Below the pieces are notes generated by a model. That model ran no database searches and had not been told where the DNA came from. It saw only the letters and a list, made by a program, of their open reading frames with translations. From positions 434,001 to 498,000 of the forward strand of contig NZ_CP031148.1 of assembly GCF_003342675.1 (NCBI RefSeq): a DNA stretch of 64,000 nt, given 5' to 3'. The position numbers and the translations under genes were made by a program. Numbering within the stretch: the first letter of the stretch is position 1; every line of letters begins with the position of its first letter. The stretch is from Haloplanus rubicundus (GTDB lineage Archaea > Halobacteriota > Halobacteria > Halobacteriales > Haloferacaceae). This document shows, one piece after another, positions 34,783-42,632 of this stretch.

Positions 34783-37122
34783 GTGAAGGTCGCCGACGCC
34801 GTCCCGGAGTTCGCCGACGCCTTCGACTTCGACGAGTTCAACGCGATGCAACGGGAAGCCCTCCCGGTCCTCGTCGAGACGGATCACAACGTCGTCGCGT
34901 CGGCGCCGACGGCGAGCGGCAAGACCGCCCTCGCCGAACTCGCCATCTGCAAGACGCTTCGCGACGGGGGGACCGCGCTCTTTATCGCGCCCATGCGCGC
35001 CCTCACCAACGAGAAGGAGAGCGAGTGGGAGCGCTTCGAGGACCTCGGCTACTCCGTCTACGTCGTCACCGGCGAGCGCGACCTGAACCCGCGGCGCGCC
35101 CGCCACGCCGACGTACTCGTCATGACGCCCGAGAAGGTGGACTCGGCCACCCGCAAACACGACTCCCGGCGCTACGACTTCGTGACCGACGTGGACTGCG
35201 TGGTGATCGACGAGGTCCACCTCCTCGACTCCGAGCGCCGCGGCGGCGTCCTCGAAGTCACCGTCTCCCGCCTCCGCCGCCTCTGTGACCCCCGATTCGT
35301 CGCGCTCTCGGCGACCATGCCGAACGTCGAGGACGTGGCGGCGTGGCTCGACGCCCCGCCCGAGGCCACCTTCGCCTTCGACGACGAGTACCGCCCGGTC
35401 GACCTCCAGACGGGCGTCAAGACCTACACTCACGGCGAGAACTCCTTCGCCGACAAGTACCGCCGGCTCTACCGCGCGCTCGACCTCGCCGAACCCCACG
35501 TCCGCGAGGACGGGCAGGCGCTCGTCTTCGTCGCCTCCCGGCAGGACGCCGTCAGCGCCGCTGCCAAGACCCGGGACGAACTCGCCGAACGCGACGTACC
35601 CGTCGGCGCCCGCGGCGACTACGACTTCCACACCGACGCGAAGGAGCTGAGCGACGACCGCCTCCACAAGGCCGTCCTCGACGGCGTCGCCTTCCACCAC
35701 GCCGGTCTCTCGAAAGCGGACCGCGACCGGATCGAGCAGTGGTTCAAGGAGGGGAAGATATCCATCCTCTTCTCGACGTCGACGCTCGCGTGGGGGGTCA
35801 ACCTCCCCGCCCGCTGTGTGATCGTCCGCGACACAAAGTACCACGACCCGTTGGAAGGTGAAGTGGACATCAGCCCCCTCGACCTCCTGCAGATGCTCGG
35901 CCGCGCCGGGCGGCCGGGGTACGACGACGTGGGCTACGGCTGGGTCGTCTGTGACCGCTCCGACGCCGACCGCTACCGTCGCCTCCTGCGTGAGGGCACG
36001 GAGATAGAGTCCCACCTCGCGGCCGATCTGGACGCCCACCTCAACGCCGAAATCGCGATGGGGACCATCGACGACCTCGACGACGTGCTCTCGTGGCTCG
36101 AGACGACCTACTACTACGTCCGCGCGGCCTCCGAACCCGCGGCCTACGACTTCGACGGCCTCCGCGACCGGGTGCGCGACACGCTCGACTCGCTGGTCTC
36201 GCGGGGCTTCGTCGAGATGGGGTCGGACCTCGCCATCGAGTCGACGGCGCTCGGCCGCCTCGCCTCGAAGTACTACCTCCGGCTCTCGACCGCCGAGGCG
36301 TTTCACGCCCTCGCGGACCGTGACCGCATCGACGCCGACGCCATCCTCGAAACCGTCGCCGCGGCGGCGGAGTTCGACTCCGTCTCCGCGCGGCAGTCGG
36401 AGGCGGACGCCGTCGACGCCGTGTTAGGTAGCGAGGCTGACCATCTCGACGACGGCGGCCGCAAAGTCCTCGCCATCCTCCGCGCCTCGACCAGCGACTC
36501 CGTGCCCGCCGACCTGCGGAGCGACGCGTGGATCATCCGCCGGAACGCCCTCCGCCTCCTCGCCGCGCTTCGGGAGTTCCTCGCCCGCTTTGCCGGCCCC
36601 CGGGCCGCCAACCTCGCCAGGCGGCTGGAGGCCCGGGTCGAACACGGCGTCAGCCGCGACGCCGTCTCCCTGACCGCCGTCGACGGGGTCGGCGCCGGCC
36701 GCGCCCGCAACCTCGCCGCCGGCGGCCTCTCGCGTCCCGCCGACATCGTCGACGCAGGCGCCGACGAACTCGAACGCGCCGGTCTCGCCGCGGGCGTCGC
36801 CGAACGCGTCGTGAACGCGGCCGCCGACTTCCCCGCCATCTCGGTCGACTGGGGTGACGTGCCCGACTCGGTGGCCGCCGGCGACAGCGAGATGTGCGAG
36901 GTCCGGGTGCGGAACGCCGGCGGCGGCGCCCGCGTCGGCGTCCGCGTCACCGTCAACGGCGTCGAGATGCACGCGAAGGAGACCTACCTCTCGGACGTGA
37001 CGACGGTGCCGGTCGGGGTGTTCGGGGCGGACGCCGATGAACTCGACTTCCGGGTCGAGGTGGCCTTCGTGGAACTGCCGATTCGGCCGTTCGTGGCGGA
37101 GCGGACGGTCCGGGTGGTGTGA
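34783..37122 (+). CDS. Ski2-like superfamily 2 DNA/RNA helicase
   Basis: ATP-dependent helicase of 779 residues, related to Hel308/Brr2. Motif I is APTASGKTA (Lys47), motif II is DEVH (143-146), motif III SATMP near 176, and motif VI QMLGRAGRPG near 370. A winged-helix/ratchet region follows, then helix-hairpin-helix LTAVDGVGAGRARNLA near 628 and a C-terminal Ig-like domain of the Sec63 type. The GTG start is chosen because GGAGGTG lies eight bases upstream (34768-34774), one of the few clear ribosome sites here. It probably acts in repair or fork restart. Confidence 0.88.
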   Translation: MKVADAVPEFADAFDFDEFNAMQREALPVLVETDHNVVASAPTASGKTALAELAICKTLRDGGTALFIAPMRALTNEKESEWERFEDLGYSVYVVTGERDLNPRRARHADVLVMTPEKVDSATRKHDSRRYDFVTDVDCVVIDEVHLLDSERRGGVLEVTVSRLRRLCDPRFVALSATMPNVEDVAAWLDAPPEATFAFDDEYRPVDLQTGVKTYTHGENSFADKYRRLYRALDLAEPHVREDGQALVFVASRQDAVSAAAKTRDELAERDVPVGARGDYDFHTDAKELSDDRLHKAVLDGVAFHHAGLSKADRDRIEQWFKEGKISILFSTSTLAWGVNLPARCVIVRDTKYHDPLEGEVDISPLDLLQMLGRAGRPGYDDVGYGWVVCDRSDADRYRRLLREGTEIESHLAADLDAHLNAEIAMGTIDDLDDVLSWLETTYYYVRAASEPAAYDFDGLRDRVRDTLDSLVSRGFVEMGSDLAIESTALGRLASKYYLRLSTAEAFHALADRDRIDADAILETVAAAAEFDSVSARQSEADAVDAVLGSEADHLDDGGRKVLAILRASTSDSVPADLRSDAWIIRRNALRLLAALREFLARFAGPRAANLARRLEARVEHGVSRDAVSLTAVDGVGAGRARNLAAGGLSRPADIVDAGADELERAGLAAGVAERVVNAAADFPAISVDWGDVPDSVAAGDSEMCEVRVRNAGGGARVGVRVTVNGVEMHAKETYLSDVTTVPVGVFGADADELDFRVEVAFVELPIRPFVAERTVRVV

Positions 37123-37235
37123 GTGGTCGGCCGGCGACGCGTCCGGTCGTCCGTGCCTGTGTCGTCGGTCACGAGACTAGGCCTTCGTGTTTAGTTAACG
37201 ATGAAGAGTGAGGCGAGTGAATTTCTTGGTGCTCT

Positions 37236-37370
37236 ATGCCAGAAATCACACGCCTCAGCGGGAATAGGGACTGGATTGATTTGGATTTTGTGGAGCGAGA
37301 GCGGACCGTGCAAACAATTAACACACTGGCTCCCCTCCCCTCCGTACTCCACGCTTCGGGGACTCCATGA
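37236..37370 (+). mobile_element. IS6-type transposase remnant (N-terminal fragment)
   Basis: A 44-codon frame starts MPEITRLSGNRDWIDLDFV followed by ERERT, which is the familiar N terminus of haloarchaeal IS6-family transposases. After ERERT the match ends and the frame runs into unrelated sequence, so the DDE catalytic domain is absent. It lies in a locally AT-rich patch between the helicase and a surface-protein gene, and its last codons overlap the ATG of that gene. No terminal inverted repeats were identified with confidence. Confidence 0.65.
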
Positions 37371-38794
37371 GAGGCGATGGCTCGCGATTCGTCGTCTACG
37401 TCGCCCTGTTCGTCCTCGTGATCGGGCAGGTGAGCGGGGCCGGCGTCACGGTCGTTCGTGGCGAGAGCGGTGCCGCGACCGTCAGCGACGGTGGCACCTA
37501 CTTCGTCGGGCAGACCCTGTCCACGGATCGGTACGATTCGGGCGATAGCGTCGACCTCGAACGCACCAATGGGAGCCTCGTGACGGCCGTTCGCGTCGCC
37601 GACGACGGGACGGTGACGCTCGATACGGGGCGATTCTCCTCCGGTGGGTACGAACTCACCAGCCCGTCGGGACCGACCATCTCGTTCGACCTCGTTCGCC
37701 AGACGTACTCGGTCGATCCGAACCGCAGTACCGTTTCCACCGCCGACGCGACCCTCGACATCGCGGTGCGGTCGAACCGGGGGAACTACACCCATGCCGT
37801 CCGATCACCGGACTTCGATGGATCGACGCTCCGAACGTTTTTCGGCGGCGCCGGAACCGTCGCTTCCGACGGTGACACGCTCCTGCTGTCGGGTGGCGCC
37901 CGACAGTCCCTGTCGATGAACCTCACCGGCGTCGAGCCGGGAAGGTACCGCTTCGTCTTCGCCGTCGCCGACGCCGACGCGAGCGAGCACATCACCGTCT
38001 CCGTCGACGACTCTGGCCCCGGTCAGATCACACTCGTGCCGCGAATCGTCCAGACCGAGGTCGGCGACGTCGCGACGGTGACCCTCCGCTTCCAGGGCAC
38101 GGACACCGCACGGCTGACGGTCGGCTCGGCGGCGCTCAACTGGCGGGTCGCCCTGACCGTCAGGGACGCCGACGGCGACGGTTCGGTCGCCATCCGGGTC
38201 GATACGGCCAACGCCCGCCAGCCGGGGACGGTGTTCACCGCGACCGGCGCCGACACCGCCTCGAACGTTACCGTGACACACGGTACTCAGTTCACCGACC
38301 CCGACCGCCGCATCGCCGCGAATCCGTATCCGCTCTCCGTCGCGACGGGCGGCAGGGAGACTGACGTCGGGACCTTGTCGTTGCGTCCCGCGACCGGCGT
38401 CACCAGCATCTGCAACCGGAACGCCGGCTCACTGGTCGATGCGTACGACGACAACGCGGACGCCGTTCCGGGGTTCCTGGCTGGTACCGTCACCGAGACG
38501 ACGATCCACGGCATCGTGACCGACGCCGGTCAGCGCGATTACACGATTATCACCGATTCCGATCGATCGGTGTCCGCGTTCCGCGCCGGTTCCCCGGACA
38601 ACGCCACCGTCGAAGTCGAAACCGACTGCGCCACGGTCCGGACGATAGCCGATGCCGAAAACAAGCGCGACGCCGTCGGCACGGCGTACGACGACGGCGA
38701 CATCGCAATCCGTGGGGTCGGTCCGATCGACACGATTCTCGTCGAGGTGCTGAAACTCGGCGTTCGGATCGGCGATCTGTTCGGCCTCGTGTGA
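37367..38794 (+). CDS. Secreted surface protein (BGTF/DUF7827-like)
   Basis: A 475-residue exported protein. Residues 1-25 are a signal peptide (FVVYVALFVLVIGQVSGA). The mature part begins with VTVVRGESGAATVSDGGTYFVGQTL and has repeated beta-rich units (SGGYELTSP, ARQSLSMNLTGVEPGRYRF) like haloarchaeal surface-glycoprotein domains, with several NxS/T sites. No C-terminal PGF or anchor helix is obvious, so it may be released or held by other means. It starts immediately after the IS6 remnant, and lies inside the apparently inserted region. Confidence 0.7.
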   Translation: MRGDGSRFVVYVALFVLVIGQVSGAGVTVVRGESGAATVSDGGTYFVGQTLSTDRYDSGDSVDLERTNGSLVTAVRVADDGTVTLDTGRFSSGGYELTSPSGPTISFDLVRQTYSVDPNRSTVSTADATLDIAVRSNRGNYTHAVRSPDFDGSTLRTFFGGAGTVASDGDTLLLSGGARQSLSMNLTGVEPGRYRFVFAVADADASEHITVSVDDSGPGQITLVPRIVQTEVGDVATVTLRFQGTDTARLTVGSAALNWRVALTVRDADGDGSVAIRVDTANARQPGTVFTATGADTASNVTVTHGTQFTDPDRRIAANPYPLSVATGGRETDVGTLSLRPATGVTSICNRNAGSLVDAYDDNADAVPGFLAGTVTETTIHGIVTDAGQRDYTIITDSDRSVSAFRAGSPDNATVEVETDCATVRTIADAENKRDAVGTAYDDGDIAIRGVGPIDTILVEVLKLGVRIGDLFGLV

Positions 38795-38816
38795 CGGTAC
38801 GGGGTAGTCGTGCCGA

Positions 38817-38927
38817 CCGGTTCTCCACCGACGCTGGGCCGCCGAGGAACTCGATTTCCCCGGGTTGGAGGTGACGCTTCCGGCGTTGCCGGGTCGGTCG
38901 TCCGTGGACGAGCGGACGGTACGGGTG
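38817..38927 (+). pseudogene. Degenerate second copy of the helicase C-terminal tail
   Basis: Reading from 38817, the frame gives PVLHRRWAAEELDFPGLEV, then a middle part ending LPALPGRSSVDERTVRV. It parallels the end of the helicase at 37020-37116 (PVGVFGADADELDFRVEV ... LPIRPFVAERTVRV), with shared ELDF, LP, R, V and the terminal ERTVRV; the DNA match is strongest at GAACTCGA and GAGCGGACGGT-CGGGTGG. There is no start codon or upstream part. It looks like the 3' end of a related helicase gene left behind after insertion or recombination. Confidence 0.5.
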
Positions 38928-38937
38928 GCCTACGGGG

Positions 38938-41901
38938 TCATTCGGCTTTCGGCAGCTCGACGACGAACGCCGCGCCGCCGGCGTCGCTGTCCTCGACGCC
39001 GACCTCGCCTCCGTAGCTCTCGACGAGCGTGTCCACCAGATACAGGCCGATCCCGGTTCCTTGGCTGTCGAGACCCTTCTCCCCCTTGCCGAAGATCGTC
39101 TCCCGCTGGGCCTCGGGGACGCCCGGTCCGTTGTCCGCGACCCGAACGACGACGGTGTCGTCGTCTTCCGTCACCGAGAGGTTCACCTGCGGCGTCGCCG
39201 CGTCGTTGTGCTGGATCGCGTTCTTCAGGAGGTTCCTGAAGACGGAGCTCAGCATGTCGTTCGCCTCGACCGTGGTCCGTGGAATGCTCGTCTCGGTGCT
39301 GACGACCGCCCGCGAGTACGTCGACCGCACCTCGTCGAGCTCGCTCTGGAGAACGGGTCGAAGGTCGACGGGTCGTGACGCCTCGTCGGTCGAGAGCATC
39401 ACGTCGGCCATCTCCCGGGCTACCTTCGTGAGTCCGACCGCGTGATCGACGGTTTCGCGCACCGTCTCGAAGTGGTCGCCCGTCGACGCGTCGTCACACT
39501 CGTCGGCGAGTCGCTCCACGTAGCCGGTTATCACCTGGAGGTCGTTGCGAATGTCGTGACGGAGGACCCGGTTGAGGATGCCGAGGTTATCGCGTTGCTC
39601 CTCTAACCGACGCTCGTACTCCTTCCGGGCGGTCACGTCCCGAACCAGCGCGTGCAGGACCGGCTTGCCCTCGTACTCGAACCGGCTGAGCTTCACCTCG
39701 GCGGGGAACGTCGTCCCGTCGGTGCGCCGATGTGTCCACTCGAAGAACGCTTCCCCTTCCTCGAAGGCCGTTTCGACGTGTGCCATGGCCGCCGCCTTCG
39801 AGTCCGCTCCGTCCGGCTGCTGTGGGGGAGAGAGTTCCCACGGTGCACGACCGACGAAGTCGTCCCCGGAATCGATGCCGAACAACTCGAGCGTTCGCTC
39901 GTTGCAGTCGACGAAGCCGTCACGGTCGAGGAGCATGAGCGCGTCGCGGGTGTTCTCGAACAGGCTACGGTATTTCTCCTCGCGTTCCTCGAGTTCGCGC
40001 TTTCGTTTCTTCCGCTCAGAAATATCGCGGACGAGCGCGTGTATCGCCGGCTGACCGTCGTATTCGAATCGGCTGAGCTTCACTTCTGACGGGAACTCCT
40101 CCCCGTCGTTGCGCTGGTGTGTCCACTCGAAGAACGCTCCCCCCTCCTCGAAGGCCGTCTCGATGCGCTCCAGCGCCGCCACCTTCGAGTCCGTCCCGTT
40201 CGGTTGTCGTGGGGGAGAGAGATCCCAGGGCGTGCGCTCCCGGAACTCTTCGACGGTGTCGATTCCGAACAGTTCGAGCGCCCGTTCGTTACAGTCGAGG
40301 TAGCCGTCGCGGTCGAACACCATGAGCGCGTCGCGCGTGCCCTCGAAGAGGCTCCGGTATTTCTGCTCCCGTTCCCTGAGCTTCTGCTCACGCTCCTTGC
40401 GATCGGTGATGTCCCGAGCGACGGCGACGAACTTTCCGACGTCGCCGTCCTCGTCGATAACCGGCGCGACCGTCTGACTCAGTACGATCTGCTGGCCGTC
40501 CGCCCGTTCATCGATCATCTCCGCTTCCCACTGCGCTCCGGAACGGATCGTCCCCCAGAACTCCGCATAGAACTCGTCGTCGTACTCCCCCGACTGGAGG
40601 ATGCGCGGCGTCTTTCCGACCGCCACCCCCTCGCTGTACCCGGTGATCTCCTCGAAGGCCGGATTGACGTATTCGATCGTTCCCTCGGCGTCGGTGATGT
40701 AGATGGCGTGGGCACTCCGCTCGACGGCCGCCTTGAACTGTTGTAACTCGGTTTCCCGGCGCTTGCGTTCCGTGATATCGACGAGATAGCCGAGGAGATG
40801 GTCTGTCTCGCCCCCGCTTTCGATCACTCTGGTGTACTCTTTCACCCACCGAACGTCGCCCGACGCCGTCTTCACTCGATACGGGTCCAAGGTGATGCTT
40901 TCGACCCCTTCGGCGTCGAGTTCGCTCGCTTCCTCGCCGACCCGTTCCCGGTCTTCCTCGTGGATGAGGTCGGCGTACTCTATCGCTCCCGACCGGAGTT
41001 CGTCGGATCTGTATCCGAGCACCTCCTCGACGTTCTCCGAGACGTAGTCGATCGGCCAGCCGTCGGTGTCTTCCCACTTGAAGACGACCGCCGGCCCCTG
41101 CTTGAACATGTCCCGCTCCTCCTTCAGCGCCAGTTCGGCGCGCTTCCGGTCGTCGATGTCCTGGTGGATGCCCACCGCCCGCACCGGCTCCCCGTCCTCG
41201 TCGCGCTCGACGACCATCCCCATCGTTCGCACCCACTTCCACTCACCGGACTTCGTTTTCAGTCGATGATCGCACCGGTAGTAGGGCGTCCGCCCCGCGA
41301 CGTGTTCGGCCAACGCCTCGTCGTGTCGGTCCCTGTCCTCCGGATGGACCACGTGCTCCCAGCCACGCATCCGGTCGCCCATCTCGGCTTGCGTGTAGCC
41401 GAGCATCTCGGTCAGCAGCTTGTCACGTGAGACTTCGCCAGTCCGCATATCCCAGTCCCAGATGCCGAGGTTCGCCCCCTCCAGCGCCAGTTTCATCCGC
41501 TGTTTCGTCGTGACCAGTTCCGCTTCGCGCTCCTTGTGCTCGCTGATGTCGCGGCTGTTCACGAGAATGCTCCCGATCGAGCCGTCGTCGAGCCGAGTCT
41601 GCGCGGTCGCTTCGATCCAACACCACGACCCGTCGGCCCGCCGGAGGCGGAGTTCGACCGTCCGTGGTTCGTCGGGATCGGTTCGCACCGCCTCCAGCAC
41701 GTCCGTAACTGTTTCCCGGTCGTCCGGATGCGTGTATTCGGTCCAGTCGTCTCCGATCACCACCCCTGGATCGTATCCGAGTACCCGTTCCACCGCCCGG
41801 TTCACGTACGTCACCGTCCCGTCGGCATCGACGACGGCGACGATATCGGCCGACTCCTCGACGAACTCGCGGTACCGTTCGGATTCCCCCTCCTCTGTCA
41901 T
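38938..41901 (-). CDS. Multi-PAS sensor histidine kinase
   Basis: A 987-residue cytoplasmic sensor with about six PAS domains in series (roughly residues 8-125, 128-255, 256-380, 383-505, 513-635, 638-757), then the dimerisation/phospho-acceptor segment RVLRHDIRNDLQV (His782) and an ATPase with LLKNAIQHN, VADNGPGVP and GTGIGLYLV. PAS5 and PAS6 are close copies of each other. No membrane helix and no receiver domain, so it senses an internal signal and needs a separate regulator, none of which is adjacent. A GTTATATTCGG box about 27 bases upstream supports the start. Confidence 0.92.
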   Translation of the reverse strand: MTEEGESERYREFVEESADIVAVVDADGTVTYVNRAVERVLGYDPGVVIGDDWTEYTHPDDRETVTDVLEAVRTDPDEPRTVELRLRRADGSWCWIEATAQTRLDDGSIGSILVNSRDISEHKEREAELVTTKQRMKLALEGANLGIWDWDMRTGEVSRDKLLTEMLGYTQAEMGDRMRGWEHVVHPEDRDRHDEALAEHVAGRTPYYRCDHRLKTKSGEWKWVRTMGMVVERDEDGEPVRAVGIHQDIDDRKRAELALKEERDMFKQGPAVVFKWEDTDGWPIDYVSENVEEVLGYRSDELRSGAIEYADLIHEEDRERVGEEASELDAEGVESITLDPYRVKTASGDVRWVKEYTRVIESGGETDHLLGYLVDITERKRRETELQQFKAAVERSAHAIYITDAEGTIEYVNPAFEEITGYSEGVAVGKTPRILQSGEYDDEFYAEFWGTIRSGAQWEAEMIDERADGQQIVLSQTVAPVIDEDGDVGKFVAVARDITDRKEREQKLREREQKYRSLFEGTRDALMVFDRDGYLDCNERALELFGIDTVEEFRERTPWDLSPPRQPNGTDSKVAALERIETAFEEGGAFFEWTHQRNDGEEFPSEVKLSRFEYDGQPAIHALVRDISERKKRKRELEEREEKYRSLFENTRDALMLLDRDGFVDCNERTLELFGIDSGDDFVGRAPWELSPPQQPDGADSKAAAMAHVETAFEEGEAFFEWTHRRTDGTTFPAEVKLSRFEYEGKPVLHALVRDVTARKEYERRLEEQRDNLGILNRVLRHDIRNDLQVITGYVERLADECDDASTGDHFETVRETVDHAVGLTKVAREMADVMLSTDEASRPVDLRPVLQSELDEVRSTYSRAVVSTETSIPRTTVEANDMLSSVFRNLLKNAIQHNDAATPQVNLSVTEDDDTVVVRVADNGPGVPEAQRETIFGKGEKGLDSQGTGIGLYLVDTLVESYGGEVGVEDSDAGGAAFVVELPKAE

Positions 41902-41993: not shown

Positions 41994-42632
41994 CTACATC
42001 GGAGCCCCCAGTTCCGCCAAGACGGCCCGCAACGCCTCCGGATCGGTCGCGGCGTGGTCGGCCAGCTCGGTTGCCTCGGGGTCGCCGCCGTACGCTATCG
42101 TGAGAATTCCGGCCCGCGTCGCCGCCCGGACGCCGTTCGGCGAGTCCTCGACGGCGACACAGTCCGCTGGGTCGGCCCCCACGCGCTCGGCGGCGACGGC
42201 GTACACGTCCGGCGCCGGCTTGCCCGGGCCGTCGACGTCTTCGGTGCTCACGACGGCGTCCACGTCGAGGTCGAACCGCTCGACGACGCGGTCGATCCAC
42301 GCGTGCGGGCTGGAGGAGACGATGGCGATCCGAACTCCCTGTTCCCGCAGATCGGCGAGCAGATCATCGAACCCCGGCAGCAGGTCGGCGCTGTCGTAGA
42401 GGTCTGCGGCGGCGGACTCGTACAGATCCAGAAATTCGTCCCGACCCAGCGCTGTCTCGTAGTTGTCGGCGAGGTAGTCGTAGGTCTCGCGGTAGTTGAT
42501 GCCGCGAATCTCGTCCTGTGCGGGCGGCTCTCCGGCCACCGCCGCGGGCAGGATCACGTCTCGCTCGCGGGCACGCCAGAACTCCTCGGTGTCGACGATC
42601 ACCCCGTCCATGTCGAAGAGGACCGCGTCCAT
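41994..42632 (-). CDS. HAD-superfamily phosphatase (phosphoglycolate-type)
   Basis: A 212-residue HAD subfamily IA hydrolase. Motif I is LFDMDGVIVDTE (nucleophile Asp near 8), the cap domain is helical, motif II lies in IAIVSSSPHAWID, motif III Lys in GPGKPAPDVYAVAA, and motif IV in VAVEDSPNGVRAA. Such enzymes act on phosphoglycolate, sugar phosphates or similar; substrate not predictable. Divergent from the NucS-N gene with 75 bases between. Confidence 0.88.
   Translation of the reverse strand: MDAVLFDMDGVIVDTEEFWRARERDVILPAAVAGEPPAQDEIRGINYRETYDYLADNYETALGRDEFLDLYESAAADLYDSADLLPGFDDLLADLREQGVRIAIVSSSPHAWIDRVVERFDLDVDAVVSTEDVDGPGKPAPDVYAVAAERVGADPADCVAVEDSPNGVRAATRAGILTIAYGGDPEATELADHAATDPEALRAVLAELGAPM

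Follow-up and report, generated by a model that had tools for sequence, protein, structure and literature searches.

Near the middle of a 64,000-nucleotide stretch of Haloplanus rubicundus DNA (the window; contig 2 of a 3.77-Mb genome), the last codons of a Ski2/Hel308-like helicase gene are encountered twice, first at the end of the gene itself and again, in degenerate form, beyond an insertion sequence remnant and a gene for a surface protein. The arrangement raises the question of which of the two tails belongs to the helicase, and of how the other came to lie beside the stop codon of a histidine kinase gene (Table 1).

The helicase and its two tails

Table 1. Features from the helicase gene to the phosphatase gene, in window coordinates
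Feature	Position	Strand	Remark
Ski2/Hel308-like DNA helicase gene, native 3' end	34783..37122	+	part of tail matching the copy: 37029-37117
Putative IS6-type element, left end, right side truncated	37183..37306	+	90-96% to the left end of five ~700-bp copies
Secreted/surface protein gene, DUF7827 domain	37367..38794	+	475 codons
Possible additional scrap, joining a helicase-tail end to a tail-unit start, at the surface-gene stop codon	38793..38826	+	score 26
Degenerate second helicase-tail copy	38837..38928	+	score 74 (shuffle maximum 36); 84 when probed with the G005 unit and junction (shuffle maximum 28)
Multi-PAS sensor histidine kinase gene	38938..41901	-	stop codon abuts the tail copy
Presumed HAD-type phosphatase gene	41994..42632	-	next to the helicase in several congeners without kinase and surface gene

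The first-pass annotation had remarked that the helicase tail is echoed downstream on the same strand, and had named an alignment against shuffled sequence as the measure of that echo. The echo is borne out. The local DNA alignment of the two tails (37029-37117 with 38837-38928) scores 74, a value attained by none of 2000 dinucleotide shuffles and by none of the 3845 further 131-base stretches taken from both strands of the window (maximum 41). At the protein level, the tail ADELDFR-VEVAFVELPIRPFVAERTVRV and the copy AEELDFPGLEVTLPALPGRSSVDERTVRV align over 29 columns in one reading frame with a BLOSUM62 score of 60, the copy having one extra codon. Among 37 window ORFs tested in this way, only the helicase has a tail that is clearly repeated in the following 3 kb, the next best score being 38. 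The copy is thus beyond chance, yet it is not adjacent to the gene, as 1.7 kb lie between the helicase and the repeated unit.

The second copy is preceded by a stop codon and no frame is conserved across species; no sign of function was found for it, nor any helicase sequence beyond the tail beside it. Where the resident tail reads FVELP and that of the sister genome G005 reads FSDLP, the copy reads LPALP, and since it keeps these FPELP-like bases it was not copied recently from the resident tail. In Blast comparisons the copy scores 77.9 bits with the tail of G003 and 75.2 bits with that of G006, as against 60.8 bits with its own. Immediately upstream of the copy, the possible further scrap has modest support, its score being reached by 3 of 5000 shuffles and by 2 of 10595 window stretches.

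As for the resident gene, the Pfam domains DEAD, Helicase_C, SNRNP200_wHTH and Sec63 are found in the helicase, and the Hel308 model is matched as well, with a score far under that model's cut-off. A single close ortholog is present in each of the 11 congeners (G001 to G011), at 89-95% identity and with a match that reaches residue 778 or 779 of 779; beyond these orthologs, high identity within the genus is confined to two tail-only pieces in G005 (residues 743/744-779). The C-termini of the congener helicases form an unbroken alignment, and the window tail (37020-37122) is colinear with the helicase in each of the 11 congeners and with those from other genera. Judged from these alignments, the resident tail is the original, orthologous tail of the helicase, common to all 12 Haloplanus helicases, and the suggestion that the resident gene had acquired a new tail is not supported. 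In the helicase tree, the window stands beside G005 (94/93), followed by G009 (96/94), G002 (91/93) and G011 (85/77).

Tail repeats in Haloplanus and other genera

The helicase end (136 bases) was used as a probe against up to 3 kb of downstream sequence, or up to 1.5 kb in some rows, in a comparison of 72 rows, of which one is the window, 11 are congeners and 60 are additional. Two of these 60 (L060 and L061) duplicate congeners, leaving 58 other-genus rows in which some genomes appear twice. The highest echo scores were those of G005 (199), G006 (111), the window (74) and G008 (53), with a best score of 39 among the remaining rows, a level that includes the congener G011, and a maximum of 36 in the reverse-complement control. 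When the G005 unit served as the probe, a cut copy was detected in G001 too (score 44, shuffle maximum 25), such that a tail-only repeat is present in 5 of the 12 Haloplanus genomes. With this same probe the other seven (G009, G011, G002, G007, G010, G004 and G003) remained under the shuffle maximum, and with the helicase-end probe a tail-only repeat was found in 0/58 other-genus rows.

All five echoes consist of the tail, or a piece of the tail, alone. In G005, G006, G008 and G001 the repeat lies directly 3' of the helicase stop codon, as opposed to 1.7 kb downstream in the window; it is degenerate or cut in G006, G008 and G001, and near-perfect in G005. In the case of G005 (L042, minus strand of the locus), two head-to-tail 110-bp units make up the first 220 bases behind the stop codon, the tail and the first unit agreeing at 100/110 positions and the two units at 108/110, and the sequence behind the units starts with TCGTCGAG once more. 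The G005 units resemble a small minisatellite-like array at the gene end. Programmed frameshifting into these units, a 110-base unit being one that shifts the frame, was considered as a candidate and dropped, because G006, G008 and G001 have only cut or broken units.

The unit start TCGTCGAGTTCTC is common to G005 and G008 and unlike the matching helicase bases, and for this reason favours a single origin of the units in at least these two genomes. In both G005 and G006 the copies most resemble the helicase of the same genome, a likeness that fits homogenisation and repeated independent duplication equally, and the tree built from 17 tails and copies (93 columns), in which no inner branch is well supported, leaves the window copy unplaced.

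The second tail in the window is best explained as one unit, now in decay, of a partial tandem duplication that affected the helicase 3' end and arose within Haloplanus, a reading to which we give a probability of about two in three. The duplicated unit comprises about the last 30-33 helicase codons (110 bp in G005), and would have originated by slippage or unequal crossing-over. Later, copies would have been lost or cut, with re-amplification or homogenisation in G005, and in the window lineage the surface-protein gene and the IS6-type element would have come between the functional tail and the unit. Support comes from the tail-only repeats directly 3' of the helicase stop codon in four congeners. 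Against this reading stand the nearness of the G005 and G006 copies to their own helicases and the lack of resolution in the tail tree; in addition, several losses are needed under one ancestral duplication because 7 of the 12 congeners have no unit above the shuffles.

DNA between the two tails

The first-pass annotation had placed an IS6 transposase fragment and a secreted-protein gene between the copies. Both elements are indeed present, although the IS6 label is only suggestive, as a long copy of the element matches the Pfam family DDE_Tnp_IS240 at 24.9 bits, under the cut-off of 27. The remnant represents the first ~124 bases of an insertion sequence with five longer copies of ~700 bp elsewhere in the genome (G000:C2:658661, 1178279, 1408038, 2383759 and C3:94743). 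Perfect 8-bp target duplications were seen by eye at 3/5 of these long copies. The corresponding duplication looked for near the remnant was not found, the 8 bases to its left (GACTAGGC) having no recurrence in the window and its right end being lost. The IS remnant is not the cause of the tail duplication.

A full-length homolog of the surface protein (74% amino acid identity) immediately follows the helicase in G010 alone, where the gap of 74 bases between the two genes holds no IS remnant and where the surface gene is followed by neither kinase nor tail unit. The match in G004 is weak, partial and located elsewhere, and the other 9 congeners have none. The earlier proposal of an insertion or gene capture at the helicase 3' end is supported in so far as extra DNA lies between the tails, as an insertion or recombination there would leave it, but an insertion fails to explain the duplication, because G005, G006, G008 and G001 carry the tail repeat without the surface gene.

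The kinase junction

The kinase gene lies behind the helicase only in the window, G001, G003 and G006 (4/12 Haloplanus genomes), and the weaker matches elsewhere are to other kinases, at no more than 78% over short stretches, a few very short ones excepted. Counted by eye, no more than about 12 bases separate the kinase stop codon from a helicase tail in any of the four carriers, the tail in question being the functional one in G003 and a degenerate unit in the other three. That the kinase gene adjoins a helicase tail in 4/4 carriers is a second line of support for the tandem duplication. Furthermore, the junction is common to carriers with and without the surface gene, which suggests either that the surface gene entered between tail and unit later, in the window lineage, or that the tail travelled with the kinase.

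The window kinase is a mosaic with respect to its closest relatives, its C-terminal part being nearest to G006 (91.2%), its middle to G003 (87.8%) and its N-terminal part to G001 (86.3%). The flanks of the locus are 86.0% (helicase end) and 81.1% identical to G006, the latter figure being for the gene that we take, from its DxDG motif, to encode a HAD-type phosphatase, and the best flank matches are to G005 or G009. In G005, G009, G002 and G011, the window's nearest relatives in the helicase tree, no kinase occurs at the locus. From these comparisons, the kinase, possibly with its helicase tail, has probably been exchanged between lineages. It may have arrived by recombination from a G006-like lineage, perhaps with the tail attached.

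These comparisons bear on a different origin of the second tail, namely a recombination scar. Here, a resident arrangement of helicase, surface gene and phosphatase, as in G010, would have received a foreign segment of helicase end, tail (or tail unit) and kinase behind the surface gene, from a G006- or G003-like Haloplanus donor, and the second tail would be that of the donor, a passenger of the kinase gene. Such an event is possible, if rather unlikely. It would account for the closeness to G006 of the kinase part next to the tail relative to the flanks, for the kinase-free loci of the four nearest relatives, for the helicase and surface gene without unit or kinase in G010, and for the higher Blast bits of the copy with the G003 and G006 tails; the scrap at the surface-gene stop codon suits the end of a donor helicase. 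Nevertheless, G003 is nearest to the middle of the kinase and G001 to its N-terminal part, leaving no single donor, the tail tree groups the copy with no donor, and an older tandem unit is still required for G005, G008, G006 and G001.

Other proposed origins of the second tail

The echo is real, and its cause, most likely the tandem duplication that we prefer, is ordinary genome wear and tear. An old local duplication followed by later rearrangement would explain it, and would make the locus a modest illustration of the way the surroundings of a conserved haloarchaeal gene are remodelled. A broader proposal regards the helicase 3' end of Haloplanus as a small turnover spot seeded by repeats, where tandem tail units give homology for recombination and neighbouring genes (surface protein, histidine kinase) would be swapped in and out with the helicase unharmed. 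We consider this doubtful; if tail units did help genes to come and go, the locus would offer a simple case in which to test gene turnover seeded by repeats.

The coincidence of tail copies and variable genes (surface gene, kinase) at one spot is also what might be left by an integrating element that targeted the helicase 3' end and restored the tail, resulting in two tails around its cargo. Such an attachment-site duplication is very unlikely, given that the G005 units are head to tail with nothing between them, and that the two window tails enclose no genes besides an IS remnant and a surface-protein gene, and no integrase. Lastly, two homologous tails on one strand had prompted the suggestion of a second helicase gene mostly deleted, or of a new tail for the resident gene, both of which are hardly credible when the echoes in the genus are tail-only and directly behind the stop codon in four other genomes, and the resident tail is orthologous throughout.

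Comparison with known systems

Where a gene has undergone partial tandem duplication with decay, its 3' portion recurs behind it in numbers that vary among relatives, and the repeats degenerate. The Haloplanus tails share the repeated 3' portion, its variable number among relatives and its decay, the difference being that in the window an IS remnant and a further gene stand between the helicase and the unit. The near-exact match of the G005 units to the G005 helicase tail could be explained by gene conversion, which has been described between the genome copies of the polyploid haloarchaeon Haloferax volcanii (PMC8223754, PMC11276520); in the parts of those reports drawn on here, the process concerns genome copies of that species, not tandem tails. 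A literature search on the present locus, at the level of titles and abstract openings, found nothing. The long insertion sequence copies are like IS6-family elements in their length of ~700 bp and in the 8-bp target duplications of 3/5, and differ from the window element in that only the first ~124 bases are found there. A further small element was noticed by eye in G002 (L044), where a MITE-like stretch of ~80 bases with inverted repeats ATAGTGTTTATTGTAA / TTACAATAAACACTAT lies directly behind the helicase stop codon, as an insertion at this same spot.
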